Shown here: positions 7,385 to 40,546 of the stretch, piece after piece | How the letters are laid out: each line of letters opens with the position of its first letter | Position numbering within the stretch: the stretch's first letter is position 1 | Assembly (NCBI GenBank): GCA_021791335.1 | Contig: JAJYWS010000039.1 | Coordinates: 1-45,300, forward strand | From: Thermoplasmata archaeon | GTDB lineage: Archaea; Thermoplasmatota; Thermoplasmata; Lutacidiplasmatales; UBA184 | DNA length: 45,300 nucleotides | Reading direction: 5' to 3' | Translations under genes and position numbers: made by a program | The notes under the pieces: model-generated | What the model was told of the DNA's origin: nothing | What the model saw: only the letters and a program-made list of their open reading frames with translations | Databases searched by the model: none

Positions 7385-8062
7385 GTGGAAGCGGAGATCC
7401 GGGAGAAGATCGCGGGGGAGGTCGTGCTGAGTCCCCACCCGGGACGGACGCTCCGCAAGTGGCGGGAGGATTTCGGCATCACCCAGCGGGATCTCGCCCA
7501 CCAACTCTCCACGGTCCCCTCGGTCATCAGCGACTACGAGTCGGAGCGACGCGCGAGTCCGGGCGCCGCCTTCATCCGGCGGTACGTCGACGCTCTGGTC
7601 GAGGTCGACCACCACCACGGCGGCCGGATGTACCAGCAGCTCGGGGGCCTGCCGGCCTCCCTGGGGATCCTCGGGCGCCGGGAGTTCTCCGCCGCCGTAC
7701 CGCTCCCCAAGCTGGCCGCCCGGCTCGACGCGATGGCGGTCAGCGCGGTGGACCTGCACCGGGACATCCATGGATTCACCCTCATCGACGCCCCGAAGGC
7801 GATCCTGTCGATCGATGCGACCCGCTACTCCGAGGTGTTCGGCTGGACCACCCAACGGGCGCTGATCTTCTCGCAGGTCAAGTACGGCCGCTCTCCGATG
7901 GTCGCGGTCCGCGCCCACCCGCTCAAACCCTCGGCGGTGGTCTTTTCCGACCCCGGCCGGGTCGATCCGCTCGCCGTCCGGCTGAGCGAGGTCGAGCGGA
8001 TCCCCCTGCTGACCACCCCCCTTCACCCTGCCGAGATCTTGACCCGACTGGAACGATTGTAG
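7385..8062 (+). CDS. XRE-type HTH transcriptional regulator, COG1709-like
   Basis: A 225-residue archaeal regulator. Residues about 20-75 form a Cro/CI-type helix-turn-helix (LRKWREDFGITQRDLAHQL, then VPSVISDYESERR as the recognition helix region). The C-terminal part is a separate alpha/beta domain typical of COG1709-like proteins, probably for ligand binding or dimerisation. It is the first gene of an apparent operon with HMG-CoA synthase (15 bp gap), the thiolase homologue and DUF35. From this position I infer that it controls mevalonate synthesis or its own operon; no operator could be identified. GTG start chosen because of the TATA box 26 nt upstream. Confidence 0.88.
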   Translation: MEAEIREKIAGEVVLSPHPGRTLRKWREDFGITQRDLAHQLSTVPSVISDYESERRASPGAAFIRRYVDALVEVDHHHGGRMYQQLGGLPASLGILGRREFSAAVPLPKLAARLDAMAVSAVDLHRDIHGFTLIDAPKAILSIDATRYSEVFGWTTQRALIFSQVKYGRSPMVAVRAHPLKPSAVVFSDPGRVDPLAVRLSEVERIPLLTTPLHPAEILTRLERL

Positions 8063-8077
8063 GAGGAAAGAGAATCC

Positions 8078-9130
8078 ATGGACGCCGGCGTGGTGAGCTA
8101 CGGAGCGTACGTCCCGAAATACCGGATCGCCCCGACCGAGATCGGCTCGGTCTGGGGGGCCGATGGTGCCGCCATGGGCCAGGGGCTCTACATCGTGCAG
8201 AAGAGCGTCCCTTCCCCCGATGAGGACACCATCACGATCTCGACCGAAGCGCTGCGCCAGGCGCTGCAGCGGGGCCGGATCGACCCGCAGTCGATCGGGG
8301 CGCTCTACGTCGGCTCCGAGTCGCACCCCTACGCGGTGAAACCGACGGCGACGATCGTCGCCCAGGCGGTCGGCGCCACGCCGCACCTGACCGCCGCCGA
8401 CTTCGAATTTGCCTGCAAGGCGGGCACCGCCGCGATCCAGACCTGCCTCGGCCTGGTCGGAGCCCGCATGATCGACCTCGGCGTCGCGATCGGCACCGAC
8501 ACCAGCCAAGGCGCCCCCGGCGATGCGCTCGAATACTCGGCGAGCGCCGGTGGAGCGGCCTTCGTGATCGGCCGGACCGGGGTCATCGCCCGCATCCACC
8601 ACACGGTGAGCTACACCACCGACACCCCCGATTTCTGGCGCCGGGAAGGGCAGCGGTATCCGAGCCACAGCGGACGGTTTACGGGAGAGCCGGCGTACTT
8701 CAAGCACGTCACCGAGTGCGCCCACCACCTCATGGAGGTCGCGAAGACGACCCCGGCCTCCTACCAGCATGTGGTCTTCCACCAACCGAACGGGAAGTTC
8801 CCCCAACGGGTCGGCAAGCAGCTCGGGTTCACCGACGACCAGATGCGCTACGGCCTGGTCACCCCCTTCATCGGCAACACCTACTCCGGGGCCGCCTTGA
8901 TCGGCCTCGCCAACGTGCTCGACCACGCCGACCCGGGCGAGCGGATCCTCATGGTCGGCTACGGGAGCGGGGCGGGGAGTGACGCGTTCGACATCGAAAC
9001 GACGCCCGAGCTCAAGCGGTTCGACCGGGCCCTCGGCCCCTCGGTGGAGAGCCACCTCCACGGCGGGACCTTCCTCAACTACGCCGTCTACGCCAAGTTC
9101 CGCGGCAAGATCCACATGGGGGGAACCTGA
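8078..9130 (+). CDS. Hydroxymethylglutaryl-CoA synthase (archaeal type)
   Basis: Condenses acetyl-CoA with acetoacetyl-CoA to HMG-CoA, the second step of the mevalonate route to archaeal isoprenoid lipids. The 350-residue length matches archaeal HMGS. The catalytic triad is complete: Glu81 in [14 protein letters not shown], nucleophile Cys113 in [11 protein letters not shown], and His235 in [11 protein letters not shown]; the C-terminal [10 protein letters not shown] is also conserved. A GGAGG motif lies about 10 nt before the ATG. In archaea HMGS forms a complex with thiolase and DUF35 that channels acetoacetyl-CoA through a shared CoA site, and the three genes are adjacent here (2-bp and 9-bp gaps), so the same complex is expected. 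Confidence 0.96.
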
Positions 9131-9132
9131 CG

Positions 9133-10305
9133 ATGCGCGAGGTCGCGGTCCTCGGTACCGGGATGACCCGCTTCGGGGAGCTCTGGGATCGATCGTTCCG
9201 GGAGATCGGGATCGAGGCCGGTCTCCAGGCCCTCGTGGACGCGAAGCTCTCCTCCAAGGATCTGAGCGCCCTCTACCTCGGGAGCATGGCGAGCGGTCCG
9301 CTGCTCGACCAGGAGCACATCGCCCCCCTGATCCTCGACTACGCGGGCCTCGCCGGCCGGCATCTCCCGGCGATCCGGATCGAAGGCGGCGGCGCCTCGG
9401 GCGCCCTTGCGCTCCACCAGGGATATTTGGCCGTGGCGAGCGGCCAGTACGATTATGTCGTGGTCGGCGGCGCCGAAAAGCTGACCGACGTCCCCGACAC
9501 GACCGGCAATCAGATCGCCAGCGCCTCGGCCGACCACGAATGGGAGGTCGTCTTCGGGGCCACCCTCCCGGCCCTCTGGGCGCTCATCGCCCGACGCCAC
9601 ATGCACCAGTACGGCACCACGCCGGAGCAGTTGGCCCAGGTCGCGGTCCACGCCCATGCGATGGGCGCGAAAAACCCCCTCGCCCACTACCGCAACCGGC
9701 TCACGGTCGCCCAGGTGCTCGGCGCGAGCCGGGTCGCGGAGCCGCTCGGCATGTTCGACTGCGCGCCGCTCAGTGACGGGGCGGCGGCGGTCGTCCTGGG
9801 GCCGCTCTCCGAGGCGAAGCGGCACACCGACACGCCCATCCGGATCGCGGCGAGCAGCGTCGCCACCGACACGATGGCGTTGCAGCACCGGCGGGACCCG
9901 ACCGTGCTCGAGTCGACGCGGGTGGCGGCCCAGAACGCCTTCCGGGCGGCCCGTCTCACGCCGTCGGACGTCCAGGTCGCCGAGATCCATGACGGCTACA
10001 CCATCAGCGCCCTGGTCGCCCTGGAGGACCTCGGATTCGTCGAGAAGGGCCAGGCGGGACCGGCGTTCGAACGCGGCGAGTTCACCGGCCGCGGCCGGCT
10101 CATGATGAACCCCTCCGGGGGACTCAAAGCCCAGGGCCGGCCCTTCGGGGCGGTCGGGGTGGCCCAGGTCGTCGAGATCGTCCGGCAGCTCCGCGGGGCG
10201 GCGGGCGACCGTCAGGTGCCGAACGTCCGCGTCGGCCTCACCCACGATGTCGGCGGCACCGGCGCCACGAGCGTGGTCCATCTGTTGGAACGGGGGGAAC
10301 CCTAG
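9133..10305 (+). CDS. Archaeal thiolase homologue lacking catalytic residues
   Basis: A 390-residue protein aligned over its full length with the archaeal acetyl-CoA C-acetyltransferase that makes acetoacetyl-CoA for HMGS; the N-terminal VLGTGMTRFGELWDRSFREI, MARRHMHQYGTT-like and NPSGGLKAQG segments are typical. Three active-site motifs differ from what I know of the family. The nucleophile motif EAACASGG reads EGGGASGA, with Gly87 at the Cys position (codon 9391-9393); HDCF reads HDGY (His286 kept); and GHP reads GRP (Arg336). The C-terminal THDVGGTGAT is kept. As written it should not form the acetyl-enzyme intermediate. It may be a scaffold or CoA-binding subunit of the HMGS/DUF35 complex. 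The reading frame is intact with normal codon use, so it is not a decaying pseudogene. Confidence 0.9.
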   Translation: MREVAVLGTGMTRFGELWDRSFREIGIEAGLQALVDAKLSSKDLSALYLGSMASGPLLDQEHIAPLILDYAGLAGRHLPAIRIEGGGASGALALHQGYLAVASGQYDYVVVGGAEKLTDVPDTTGNQIASASADHEWEVVFGATLPALWALIARRHMHQYGTTPEQLAQVAVHAHAMGAKNPLAHYRNRLTVAQVLGASRVAEPLGMFDCAPLSDGAAAVVLGPLSEAKRHTDTPIRIAASSVATDTMALQHRRDPTVLESTRVAAQNAFRAARLTPSDVQVAEIHDGYTISALVALEDLGFVEKGQAGPAFERGEFTGRGRLMMNPSGGLKAQGRPFGAVGVAQVVEIVRQLRGAAGDRQVPNVRVGLTHDVGGTGATSVVHLLERGEP

Positions 10306-10314
10306 GGAGCCACC

Positions 10315-10755
10315 ATGTCGATCGCACGGTTCTGGAGGGCGACGCCCCAGCGGTACAATCTCGGCGCCTCGAAGTGCACGGTCTGCCAGCAGGTCTACTT
10401 TCCCCCGCGTACCGTCTGCCCGAACTGCACCCACCACCGGGAGTCCATCGGGAAGATGCAGCCGCTCCAGCTTTCGGGGGACGGCGAGGTGATCTCGTAC
10501 ACGATCGTCCACGATGCGGCCGAAGGCTTCGAGATGCAGGTCCCGTATGTCCTGGCCCTCGTCCGGACCGACGAAGGCCCGGTCCTGACCGGCGCCGTCG
10601 TCGACGTCTCCCCTTCGGAGGTCACGATCGGCCTTCGGGTCCGGGCGACGTTCCGTAAGCTCCGGGAGGAGGGCAAGGCCGGCGTCATCCACTACGGATA
10701 CAAGTTCGCTCCCCGGGAGACGGCGCCGGCCCCCGGAGCCCCTCCGACGGGCTAG
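10315..10755 (+). CDS. DUF35 zinc-ribbon/OB-fold protein of the HMGS-thiolase complex
   Basis: A 146-residue protein with an N-terminal rubredoxin-like zinc ribbon (Cys21, Cys24, Cys35, Cys38: CTVC...CPNC) followed by an OB-fold (GEVISYTIVHDAAEGFEMQVPY, VLALVRTDEGP, LRVRATFRKLREEG). DUF35 proteins bridge thiolase and HMGS in archaea and help form the shared CoA site. It follows the thiolase gene by 9 bp with a GGGAGCC motif before the ATG. Its presence argues that the complex still assembles although the thiolase subunit lacks its nucleophile. Confidence 0.93.
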   Translation: MSIARFWRATPQRYNLGASKCTVCQQVYFPPRTVCPNCTHHRESIGKMQPLQLSGDGEVISYTIVHDAAEGFEMQVPYVLALVRTDEGPVLTGAVVDVSPSEVTIGLRVRATFRKLREEGKAGVIHYGYKFAPRETAPAPGAPPTG

Positions 10756-36301: not shown

Positions 36302-36535
36302 CTAGCGTCCGACGGCCACCAGGGTCTCGGTGGCGAGCACGCCCGGGATTCTCCGGACCCGCTGGAGTACGATGTCGAGCGCGGTGGGAATCCGTTCGGC
36401 CTCCAGCTTGACGATCACATCGTAGGGCCCGGTGACCGCCTGGACATCGGCGACCTCCCGGATCTCCCGGAGTCGGTGGACGACCTCCTCCAACCGGCCC
36501 ACGTCCACGCGGGCCAGGAGATAGATGAGTTCCAT
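36302..36535 (-). CDS. Stand-alone Lrp/AsnC effector-binding (RAM) domain protein
   Basis: A 77-residue protein consisting only of the alpha/beta ligand-binding domain of Lrp/AsnC regulators: LIYLLARVDVGRLEEVVHRL, REVADVQAVTGPYDVIVKLE, and IPGVLATETLVAVGR. There is no helix-turn-helix. Such proteins bind amino acids and form dimers or octamers; some modulate full-length Lrp proteins. TATTAA at 36563-36568 lies about 30 nt upstream, supporting a (nearly) leaderless start. Its partner regulator is not in the window. Confidence 0.88.
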   Translation of the reverse strand: MELIYLLARVDVGRLEEVVHRLREIREVADVQAVTGPYDVIVKLEAERIPTALDIVLQRVRRIPGVLATETLVAVGR

Positions 36536-37146: not shown

Positions 37147-38412
37147 ATGGCGCTCCGGCTCCGGGACACCCGCACGGGCACGGTCCGCTCAGTGACCCCG
37201 GGTCGGCCGGGGCCCCTGGCCCTGTATGTCTGCGGGCCCACGGTGTACGACGCCGCCCATGTGGGCCACGGGCGCACCTACCTCTACTTCGACCTGCTCC
37301 GCCGGACCCTCGAGGAGGGGGGGACCCCGGTCCGGCACATCATGAACATCACCGACTTTGAAGACAAGGTCGACGTCCGGGCGGCTGAGCTGGGGCTCAC
37401 CTGGAAGCAGCTGGCCCGACAGGAGGAGCGCCGGTTCTTCTCGGACCTGAACCACTTCGGGGCCCGAATGCCCCACGTCACGCCGAGAGCCAGCGACTTT
37501 GTGTCCCGGATGGTCGAGGTGGCCCGCCGGCTCGATCGGACCGGGCGGGTCCACCGCCAAGGCGACTCCTGGTTCTACACCCCGCCGATCGGTTCCCGCT
37601 GGAAGAACTTCATCATCGCGGGCGACCTGGAGCAGCACGCGGTGGCGGAGCCCGGCCACCCCCTGACCGAGACGGACGGACGGACGTTCATGGTCTGGAA
37701 GCTCCAGAAGCCTCCGCTGCCGTCCTGGCCGAGCCCCTGGGGTCCGGGAACCCCCGGCTGGCAGCTCGAGTGTTACGCCATGGCCAGCCGATACCTCGGG
37801 ATGCCCGTCGATCTCCACGGGGGCGGTCAGGATCTCATCTACCCGCACCATTTTGCCGGCAACGAGATCGCCTTCGCCCTGGACCGGTCGCCCTTCTCCC
37901 GGGTCTTCTTCCACGCGGCCTTCGTCCTCCGGGAAGGCCGGAAGATGTCGAAGTCCCTGCGGAACCTGGTGCCCTTGGCCCAGCCGCTCCGTGAGGTGGG
38001 AGCGGGCGCCCTTCGGTGGTACCTCGCGGGGCCGGCGCCGACCGAGAAGCTCGAATGGGATCCCCGACGCCTGCGGCGGGCCGCCGAGACCTTCGCGCTG
38101 GTCCAGGGGACCCTCGCGGCGCTCGGGGCTCCGGTCGCCGAAGGCTCCGTCGGCGGCGCGGACCTCCACCGGCTGGCGGATGGGGTCCAGCGGGACCTCG
38201 AGCGCGGGTTTAGGCCCGACCTGGCCCAGCAACGGATTCTCCGGTTCACCGACGCGGTCCGACATCGGGCGGCTCCGGGCCTGCAACGCGGCGACCGCCG
38301 GGCGGCCCGGAGCGCCCTCGCCCGGATCGAGCGGCTGATCGGACTGGATTTCGGCGCGTCGGAACGGCGGCGCGGTGGGCTCAGAGCCCCGTCCGATCGA
38401 CCGCGGTCGTGA
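37147..38412 (+). CDS. cysS: Cysteinyl-tRNA synthetase
   Basis: Class I synthetase that charges tRNA-Cys. At 421 residues it is slightly shorter than the usual 450-480. Motifs: YVCGPTVYDAAHVGHGRTYL with zinc ligand Cys29 and the HIGH-type sequence HVGH (38-41), NITDFEDKV, GWQLECYAMASRYLG, the zinc-ligand segment DLHGGGQDLIYPHHFAGNEI, and KMSKS at 266-270 within EGRKMSKSLRN. The C-terminal helical domain is reduced. The ATG at 37147 is taken from the conserved N-terminus and the TATA element upstream. Its last 32 bp overlap the convergent thiolase gene. Confidence 0.94.
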   Translation: MALRLRDTRTGTVRSVTPGRPGPLALYVCGPTVYDAAHVGHGRTYLYFDLLRRTLEEGGTPVRHIMNITDFEDKVDVRAAELGLTWKQLARQEERRFFSDLNHFGARMPHVTPRASDFVSRMVEVARRLDRTGRVHRQGDSWFYTPPIGSRWKNFIIAGDLEQHAVAEPGHPLTETDGRTFMVWKLQKPPLPSWPSPWGPGTPGWQLECYAMASRYLGMPVDLHGGGQDLIYPHHFAGNEIAFALDRSPFSRVFFHAAFVLREGRKMSKSLRNLVPLAQPLREVGAGALRWYLAGPAPTEKLEWDPRRLRRAAETFALVQGTLAALGAPVAEGSVGGADLHRLADGVQRDLERGFRPDLAQQRILRFTDAVRHRAAPGLQRGDRRAARSALARIERLIGLDFGASERRRGGLRAPSDRPRS

Positions 38413-39592
38413 GCCCGTTGCCGCCCCCCATGCAGAGCGTCGCGAGACCGTAGCGCCCGTGGGCATGGATGAGTTCGTGAATCAAGCTCACGACGATCCG
38501 GGCGCCGCTGGCGCCGATGGGGTGGCCCAGCGCCACCGCCCCCCCGTGGACGTTGAACCGGTCGTCCGGTAGGTCAAACGTCCGTTGGACGGCCAAGGAG
38601 GCCGAACTGAACGCCTCGTTGTGTTCGACCCGATCGAAACGGTCGATCGTCCATCCGAACCTCGAAAGATGCTTGCGGATGGTCGGGATCGGCGCCTCCA
38701 TGACCTCCGACGGGTGGACCCCCGACTCCGCCCATGAGTGGATCCACGCCAGCGGGCGGGCTCCGCGGCGCTCGACCTCCGATTCGCTGGCCAACACGAG
38801 CGCGGCCGCGCCATCGGAGAGCTGGGAGGAGTTGCCGGCCGTCAGGAGACCGTCGGGCCGGAAGACCGGCCGGAGCCCCCCGAGCCGCTCCAGGCTGGTC
38901 GTGGGCCGGGGACCTTCGTCGTGATCCAAGGCGGGGCTGCCCGGGGCGATCCCCGCGGGGACCGGCACGATCTCGGAGGCAAAGCTGCCGTCCCGATGGG
39001 CCGCGACGGCCCGCTCGTTGCTCCGCAGCGCAAACCGGTCCAGGTCGGTCCGGGTCAGGTGGAATTTCTGGGCGATCCGCTCACCCGTGAGCCCCATGAG
39101 CTCGTGCTCGCCGTAGGCGTCCCGGAGAGCGTCATGCTGAACGGCATCCTCGAGGCTCTGGGGGCCATAGCCGAGGCCGCGACGGGCCTCCGGCATGAGG
39201 AGATAGGGGGCTCCCGACATGCTCTCCATGCCGCCCACGACCGCGATGGAACACTCCCCGGACCGGACGGCCAGGCTCCCCCAGTGGAGGGCCTTCATCC
39301 CGGACCCGCAGACCATGTTGACCGTGGCCGCTCCGACCGCATCGGGAATGCTGGCCCCGCGGAGCACCTGCCGGGCCGGATTCTGTCCGGCCCCGGCCTG
39401 GATGCCCTGTCCGAAGAGCACCGACTCCACTTCCTCCGGTCGGACGGCGGCCCGGTCGAGCGCTTCCCGGACCACCAAGGTCCCCAGGGTGGTTGCGGGC
39501 AGCAACTTGAGCGCCCCACCGAACTTCCCGATCGGCGTCCGGACGGCGGAAAGGACAGCGACCCGCGGGTGCGGCTCGGGCGACTGGACCAT
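38381..39592 (-). CDS. Acetyl-CoA C-acetyltransferase (bacterial-type thiolase)
   Basis: A 403-residue thiolase of the AtoB/PhaA/FadA type, which joins two acetyl-CoA to acetoacetyl-CoA or cleaves 3-ketoacyl-CoA. All catalytic motifs are present: NMVCGSGMKAL with the nucleophile Cys, VEHNEAFSSASL, GGAVALGHPIGASG with the GHP His, and CMGGGNG with the second Cys. It lies 28 bp downstream of PCNA on the same strand, with GGGGAGGGG before the ATG. This is a different subfamily from the archaeal thiolase homologue at 9133-10305, which lacks these residues, so it is the better candidate in this window to supply acetoacetyl-CoA; a role in fatty acid breakdown is also possible. Confidence 0.93.
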   Translation of the reverse strand: MVQSPEPHPRVAVLSAVRTPIGKFGGALKLLPATTLGTLVVREALDRAAVRPEEVESVLFGQGIQAGAGQNPARQVLRGASIPDAVGAATVNMVCGSGMKALHWGSLAVRSGECSIAVVGGMESMSGAPYLLMPEARRGLGYGPQSLEDAVQHDALRDAYGEHELMGLTGERIAQKFHLTRTDLDRFALRSNERAVAAHRDGSFASEIVPVPAGIAPGSPALDHDEGPRPTTSLERLGGLRPVFRPDGLLTAGNSSQLSDGAAALVLASESEVERRGARPLAWIHSWAESGVHPSEVMEAPIPTIRKHLSRFGWTIDRFDRVEHNEAFSSASLAVQRTFDLPDDRFNVHGGAVALGHPIGASGARIVVSLIHELIHAHGRYGLATLCMGGGNGLTTAVDRTGL

Positions 39593-39620: not shown

Positions 39621-40361
39621 CTACGCCTCTTCGACCCGGGGCGCGAGGAGGAACTCGCCCGAGCCCTTCTGCTGGGCCACGGGGAACTCGATCTTCAGCG
39701 GATACTCATTGCCCACATGGAGCGTGACCTCATCGGCCGAACTGATCGACTTCATCATCGCCGAGAAGAAGTCGAGGGGGTACATGCTCTTGACCCGGTC
39801 CTTCGCCTCGATGCTCACGAGCCCGTCGGTCGGGGTGAGCCGCATGTCCATCTTGTCGGTCTCGCTCTCGGAATGGAGCGTAAAGGAGTCGGAGTCCAGT
39901 TCGAGGATCACATTGTCGGCGATGCTCTCGCTGCCGCGGATCCCCTGCCGGAGTTCCTCCATGCGGACCACGGCCTTTGCCGGCGGGTTGACGGTCGGCA
40001 CCTTGGGGTCGGTCAGGCTCGCCGGATCGACGAGCGACATCGCCCGGACCACCTTGCCGACCCGGGTCACCAACGGGTTCTTGCCCCCGTCGTACTGGAG
40101 CGACACCGTATCGCCCGGCTTGGACAGGCGCAGCACGTCCTTGAACCGCTCCATGTCGACGCCGATCTCGGTCGGTTCCCCGGTGAACTCCTCGAAGGCG
40201 GACGGGCTGAGGCGGAGGAGGAGCATCGCCACATGGGACGGGTCGACCGCCTTGACTTCGAGGCCCTCCTTGGAGACGGAGAACTTGGCCTCGGAGACGA
40301 GGGTGGACACCGCTTCGACCACCTCGCGCAGGACCTCCATCCGGATACGAGCCTTGAACAT
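39621..40361 (-). CDS. pcn: DNA polymerase sliding clamp PCNA
   Basis: A 246-residue ring clamp that tethers polymerases, FEN1, ligase and other PIP-box proteins to DNA. Seen: MFKARIRMEVLREVVEAVST, GLEVKAVDPSHVAMLLLRL, FKDVLRLSKPGDTVSLQYD, the interdomain region near VDPASLTDPKVPTVNPPAK, and the C-terminal HVGNEYPLKIEFPV with a FLLAPRVEE end. ATG 40361 matches the conserved N-terminus; TATTTAGA (minus strand, 40393-40400) gives a leader of about 9 nt. Divergent from alaX and probably co-transcribed with the thiolase. Confidence 0.96.
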   Translation of the reverse strand: MFKARIRMEVLREVVEAVSTLVSEAKFSVSKEGLEVKAVDPSHVAMLLLRLSPSAFEEFTGEPTEIGVDMERFKDVLRLSKPGDTVSLQYDGGKNPLVTRVGKVVRAMSLVDPASLTDPKVPTVNPPAKAVVRMEELRQGIRGSESIADNVILELDSDSFTLHSESETDKMDMRLTPTDGLVSIEAKDRVKSMYPLDFFSAMMKSISSADEVTLHVGNEYPLKIEFPVAQQKGSGEFLLAPRVEEA

Positions 40362-40392
40362 TGGGCAACCTGACCGGCCCACACTGCCCCGC

Positions 40393-40400
40393 TCTAAATA
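40393..40400 (-). promoter_or_regulatory. pcn: TATA box of the PCNA gene
   Basis: TATTTAGA on the minus strand, centred about 36 nt from the ATG at 40361. Confidence 0.6.
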
Positions 40401-40546
40401 GGTTGCCTTGCCCCCCGAGGGTGACCGGGGGCGCGCCGGTCGTGACCCGCGCCCGGGGCCCCCGGCGCCACCGACGCGGGGGCAGGACCGCCGCAAGCGA
40501 CTTCCACCGCGCGGTCTTGGGGTCCGGGCGGGGGGCTGCAGGACCG

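Follow-up and report, generated by a model that had tools for sequence, protein, structure and literature searches.

The complex formed by thiolase, HMG-CoA synthase (HMGS) and a DUF35 protein is the textbook example of acetoacetyl-CoA channelling, placed where the archaeal isoprenoid (membrane lipid) pathway begins. The locus described here raises the question of what a thiolase encoded with these partners does once its catalytic residues are gone, and of where the acetoacetyl-CoA then comes from. The gene concerned lies in a 45,300-nucleotide stretch of DNA from a Thermoplasmata archaeon, analysed as a whole (the window). An initial annotation had described its product as a full-length archaeal thiolase homologue deprived of its key residues, which might be only a scaffold or CoA-site contributor, with acetoacetyl-CoA made elsewhere, or might use another chemistry.

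Organization of the locus

The thiolase ORF (9133-10305, + strand; protein span 9133-10302) starts with ATG and encodes 390 amino acids without any internal stop. It sits between the genes of an archaeal HMGS (8078-9130, +) and of a DUF35 protein (10315-10755, +), and the three make up the gene set of the archaeal complex solved for Methanothermococcus thermolithotrophicus (6esq/6et9). The HMGS exceeds the cut-offs of both NCBIfam models PRK04262 and TIGR00748 (518.8 bits versus 353.35 for the latter) and its catalytic residues Glu81, Cys113 and His235 are intact. The DUF35 protein comprises zf-ChsH2 and OB_ChsH2_C domains (Pfam PF12172 and PF01796) and retains the four cysteines of its C4 zinc ribbon (21, 24, 35 and 38). 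Both neighbours thus keep their key residues, as had been claimed. Directly upstream of the operon, a gene for an HTH regulator (7385-8062, +; Pfam HTH_31/HTH_3) has its likely start inside the ORF, and a homologous HTH ORF is also found 5' of HMGS at another locus (L276). A promoter and terminator scan yielded nothing of use.

The window harbors a second thiolase gene, 28 kb away from the first (38381-39592, -), whose translation identifies an AtoB/PhaA-type acetyl-CoA acetyltransferase, a thiolase of bacterial type. It possesses both thiolase domains (Pfam Thiolase_N, 271 bits; Thiolase_C, 132 bits) and the full catalytic set: Cys95, HNEAF, His357 of GHP, and Cys387. To note, some 29 bases separate the start of this gene from a PCNA-like ORF lying upstream of it on the same strand (39621-40496, -), with which it is possibly co-transcribed. 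A stand-alone Lrp/AsnC ligand-binding domain of 77 amino acids, devoid of DNA-binding domain, is encoded nearby at 36302-36535 (-).

A thiolase fold without thiolase residues

The AlphaFold model of the thiolase subunit (pLDDT 94.2) leaves little doubt on its fold: the best structural relatives returned by Foldseek are the thiolases of the archaeal complex, 6et9_C and 6esq_A (TM 0.96, rmsd 1.1-1.2, 44% identity), in agreement with its description as a full-length homologue in an intact frame. The score of the protein lies above the cut-off of the subfamily model PRK06064 (484.8 versus 420 bits) but below that of the equivalog model AcCoTHIOL_METTL (490 versus 600 bits). The phmmer alignment with 6esq_A confirms the three replacements reported initially. 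The segment R-I-E-G-G-G87-A-S-G faces R-V-E-A-A-C-A-S-G, Gly87 replacing the acetyl-accepting Cys; H286-D-G-Y289 faces HDCF; and G-R336-P faces GHA, the equivalent of the GHP found in most relatives. A displaced active-site Cys, named beforehand as an observation that would speak against this description, was searched for in the same alignment, and no shifted or alternative Cys is present near the nucleophile position.

The same three differences are observed in about 30 orthologues of the same genus. The nucleophile column contains Gly, or Asp in one species; the HDCF site reads HDAY or HDGY, with variants NDAY and FDGY; the GHP site reads GRP, with a single GQP. The three changes being common to these orthologues, sequencing errors and frameshifts are ruled out. 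The subunit would be, as far as its residues can tell, a pseudoenzyme deprived of catalytic activity.

Distribution of the Cys-less subunit among archaea

A sample of 228 thiolases encoded directly after HMGS was assembled, a few of the loci being duplicates. The Thermoplasmatota were retrieved by genome search, whereas a search by name provided the remaining archaea and some bacteria. The nucleophilic Cys is absent in 125 of them: the column contains 103 Cys, 80 Gly, 18 Asp, 14 Thr, 10 Ser and 3 Glu. The HMGS Glu/Cys/His set is complete in 224 of the 228 aligned HMGS, that of the window included. A complete methanogen genome exhibits an unusual case (L268, G169:C1:586000-589700): its HMGS is matched in two pieces, one with an internal TGA, and an Arg occupies the catalytic Glu column, the result of either an assembly frameshift or a broken HMGS. 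In another genome (G066), where HMGS and thiolase also occur as a regular pair (L267), a divergent second HMGS-like gene has a thiolase homologue in its vicinity, arranged otherwise than in the usual succession of HMGS and thiolase (L270, G066:C103:35700-40000).

The Cys-less set spans the greater part of the class Thermoplasmata and also includes Archaeoglobus and a single Halobacteriales metagenome-assembled genome (MAG). Every fetched member of the window's own family is Cys-less. Loci named as Methanomassiliicoccales (L108, L140, L153) exhibit a Gly at the nucleophile column, while those of Archaeoglobus (L169, L175) display Asp, HDSF and GHA, and the Halobacteriales MAG (L164) also displays Asp. 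Two Cys-less genomes that we take to be Thermoplasma acidophilum and T. volcanium read EASTASGG, NDSY and GNP. Cys and GHP are kept in Aciduliprofundum-like genomes (L054, L257) and a named relative (L173), as well as in two further families of the class Thermoplasmata (L043, L046). Loss of the Cys is thus a trait of most Thermoplasmata and of Archaeoglobus, and is not peculiar to the window's genome. The three changes occur together within the genus; beyond it, the His of GHP is retained in some Cys-less thiolases. In the Cys-less group as a whole, Gly, Asp, Thr, Ser or Glu is found at position 87, and His, Asp, Asn, Tyr, Gln, Phe or Arg at position 336.

No earlier report of a Cys-less HMGS-linked thiolase was found in a search that covered the open literature, and the word thiolase is absent throughout a survey of archaeal mevalonate genes. 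Priority of the observation is unproven.

Association with an AtoB-type thiolase

The presence of the nucleophilic Cys and of AtoB was scored in 142 Thermoplasmatota genomes possessing an HMGS-linked thiolase. AtoB is present in 96 of the 98 Cys-less genomes and absent from 27 of the 44 Cys-bearing ones, leaving 2 Cys-less genomes without AtoB and 17 genomes with both Cys and AtoB (Fisher p 2.4e-15, kinship being ignored). Both exceptions are drafts, G031 being 90% and G046 74% complete. Loss of the Cys is therefore almost confined to AtoB-carrying genomes across the phylum. Conversely, the 17 genomes that kept the Cys despite AtoB indicate that AtoB permits the loss and does not force it. Catalytic residues are kept in all AtoB homologues checked (51 sequences, one of them cut by masked sequence). 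Outside the phylum, a classical thiolase accompanies all three Cys-less loci (two Archaeoglobus and the Halobacteriales MAG), although the two Archaeoglobus matches are weaker (~1e-80) and could correspond to another classical thiolase type. In the 14-locus search by name, which includes some Thermoplasmatota, it is absent for 8 of the 11 Cys-bearing loci.

No family in the 142-genome table holds both Cys-bearing and Cys-less members. Kinship was taken into account with two trees, one concatenating HMGS and thiolase without the active-site columns, the other made with HMGS alone. The state changes at least 4 times on the concatenated tree and 8 times on that of HMGS. When pairs are drawn along independent paths, they differ in the predicted direction or not at all, and on average never in the opposite one; their number is too low for the sign test to be significant, and two-state likelihood models were therefore added. 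A rate of Cys loss that depends on AtoB fits better, both with irreversible loss (likelihood-ratio test, p 9.9e-6 on the concatenated tree and 4.5e-8 on the HMGS tree) and with reversible loss (p 0.0066 and 7e-5, respectively). The rate of loss in the absence of AtoB settles at its lower bound in every fit: the models place Cys loss only in the presence of AtoB. Since likelihood tests may overstate significance when changes are few, this association is strong but not final.

Some genomes act as natural controls. In ten methanogen genomes of one family (97-99% complete), placed as Methanomassiliicoccales-type through named relatives, the only two thiolases other than HMGS detected by Pfam are the Cys-less HMGS partner and AtoB. 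These genomes exhibit no strong match to a 3-hydroxyacyl-CoA dehydrogenase, with one short match just over the cut-off and two below, and a β-oxidation role of AtoB is therefore unlikely there. The idea that AtoB is a mere marker of β-oxidation is weakened by these methanogens. The mirror case is provided by a genome, probably Aciduliprofundum or like it (G111), in which the intact HMGS-linked thiolase is the sole thiolase and AtoB is absent. The window's genome is less simple: it encodes two further SCP2-type thiolases, on contigs C9 and C55, whose sites are intact, along with several 3-hydroxyacyl-CoA dehydrogenases, and AtoB therefore need not be the supplier there.

The same genome contains two thiolase-like paralogues in which GHP is kept and the nucleophilic Cys is missing: one reads DAASASG and lies beside a 3-hydroxyacyl-CoA dehydrogenase (contig C10, L058:5700-6803, -), the other reads EWGGATG (contig C31, L059:6132-7469, +). 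Both are possible further pseudo-thiolases. At another locus (L057:5623-6678, -), a 351-residue protein encoded beside an intact SCP2-type thiolase harbors a DUF35-type zinc ribbon after about 200 residues without Pfam match.

Selection on the subunit and its pocket

The catalytic columns of the Cys-less group are relaxed, as would be expected of a decaying relic hitch-hiking in the operon and heading for loss. Selection on the gene makes such a fate very improbable. In the closest pair, dN/dS is 0.078 for the Cys-less thiolase (0.08 once rounded), as compared to 0.038 for HMGS and 0.065 for AtoB, and mean identity across the genus is 79%, versus 69% for AtoB. With a single exception, the fetched HMGS loci all have this gene after HMGS, in part through selection, most of them having been retrieved for the thiolase or for HMGS. 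The subunit is under strong purifying selection, and the relic hypothesis was rejected on dN/dS.

Of the 145 thiolase columns that are conserved when the Cys is present, the Cys-less thiolases have lost 22, while their HMGS have lost 4 out of 140. Many of the thiolase losses fall in known active-site motifs (86, 87, 288, 289, 336, 338, 341) or in the segment 129-149, and the backbone loops NxSGGLK and GG are kept in Cys-less members. In the window's family, new residues have been fixed in the pocket: Gly86, Trp149, Tyr289, Arg336, Phe338 and Val341, each at 91-100%.

Possible functions of the Cys-less subunit

The conserved fold and loops could be taken to mean that some weak thiolase activity persists in the subunit, or that it performs a non-covalent Claisen condensation with the help of another residue or of a bound thiol. 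We consider this highly unlikely, as the nucleophilic Cys, the Cys of HDCF and the His of GHP have all changed in the window's protein, the Cys-less group exhibits no conserved alternative residue, and its genomes nearly always possess AtoB.

A change of chemistry within the HMGS complex, either a Cys-independent (retro-)aldol reaction as in Ltp2 and Sal or a decarboxylation, also has arguments in its favour. The pocket of the window's family has been re-fixed and has not drifted at random, and aldolases of the thiolase fold, too, function with a DUF35 partner and lack the nucleophilic Cys, CtSal having likewise a Gly in its place (PMC12329534). These enzymes need a Tyr as first residue of their Y-D-x-F/Y motif (Y-D-H/C-F/Y), while Tyr305 of CtSal is not essential (PMC12329534). 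The first position is precisely the one where the Tyr is missing here, and the Ltp2/Sal reading was rejected on this ground: it is occupied by His286 in the window's protein and by Asn, Phe or Asp elsewhere in its family. Tyr289 aligns instead with Tyr305 of CtSal, the loss of which costs only ~8-fold. Furthermore, no catalytic residue is common to the Cys-less group, positions 87 and 336 being too variable, and the conserved operon points to no new substrate. As none of the three motif positions has an invariant acid, base or nucleophile across the Cys-less group, the other chemistry envisaged in the initial annotation is disfavoured, and we hold it to be quite improbable. A new role is also unlikely in a broader form, in which the pocket re-fixed with Trp149, Tyr289, Arg336 and Phe338 would carry a new CoA-thioester chemistry, or in which the subunit would be, instead of a passive scaffold, a gate or docking site that takes acetoacetyl-CoA from AtoB and governs access to the first committed steps of lipid synthesis in archaea.

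The best-supported reading is the other one initially proposed: the protein is probably an archaeal acetoacetyl-CoA thiolase turned pseudoenzyme, kept as a scaffold or part of the CoA site, with AtoB supplying acetoacetyl-CoA. It draws on features read directly from the sequences (the missing residues, the intact partners, the presence of AtoB in the window, purifying selection and the near confinement of Cys loss to AtoB genomes), from which we infer the role of AtoB as supplier; the physical scaffolding of HMGS is suggested by the conserved operon, by the fold and by the selection acting on the subunit. The free AtoB-type thiolase would condense acetyl-CoA into acetoacetyl-CoA, which would reach, together with acetyl-CoA, the intact HMGS and be converted into HMG-CoA. 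The Cys-less subunit would have given up thiolysis and condensation and would be an obligatory structural partner that completes, with DUF35, the CoA-binding site of HMGS. A 2018 article by Vogeli et al. reportedly describes a fused CoA-binding site in the thiolase/HMGS/DUF35 complex; if HMGS indeed shares its CoA site with the other two proteins, a thiolase that is dead would still be expected to be kept. As to the evolutionary route, the presence of AtoB may have made catalysis by the complex-bound thiolase dispensable; the nucleophile, the Cys of HDCF and often the His of GHP would then have been lost while the subunit stayed, its pocket being re-filled in the window's family by the bulky Trp149, Tyr289, Arg336 and Phe338.

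The association with AtoB brings new evidence for the subunit being a scaffold. If the thiolase is dead across most Thermoplasmata, methanogens included, and Archaeoglobus, direct channelling out of a thiolase bound in the complex cannot be the general rule, and the annotation of the Cys-less genes as acetyl-CoA acetyltransferases would be wrong. The natural series formed by an intact thiolase, an intact thiolase with AtoB, and a dead thiolase with AtoB offers a clean test of the structural need of HMGS for its thiolase subunit.

Comparison with known systems

The closest known system is the thiolase of Methanothermococcus thermolithotrophicus (6esq/6et9), which the window's protein resembles in operon partners, fold, length and loops. 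It differs from it by the absence of the acetyl-accepting Cys, of the HDCF Cys and of the GHP/GHA His, and by its score with the equivalog model. The Ltp2-ChsH2(DUF35) and Sal-Shy(DUF35) pairs share with it the thiolase fold, the Gly in place of Cys and a DUF35 partner, here encoded by the adjacent gene; the window's protein is, however, encoded in an HMGS operon, is far closer by sequence to archaeal thiolase, and has its catalytic Tyr replaced. Two other thiolase-like proteins are also comparable. The Trypanosoma brucei SCP2-thiolase-like protein (TbSLP, 5ab4-5ab7), reportedly devoid of the SCP2-thiolase Cys residues, has been crystallised with acetoacetyl-CoA and malonyl-CoA, but it is eukaryotic, possesses a YDCF motif, displays 26-27% identity and has no known link to HMGS. 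The archaeal thiolase-like protein ST0096 of Sulfolobus tokodaii (4yzo) likewise lacks a Cys at the nucleophile position (RVDNTSGSGG), but shares only ~30% identity with the window's protein and keeps its GHP.
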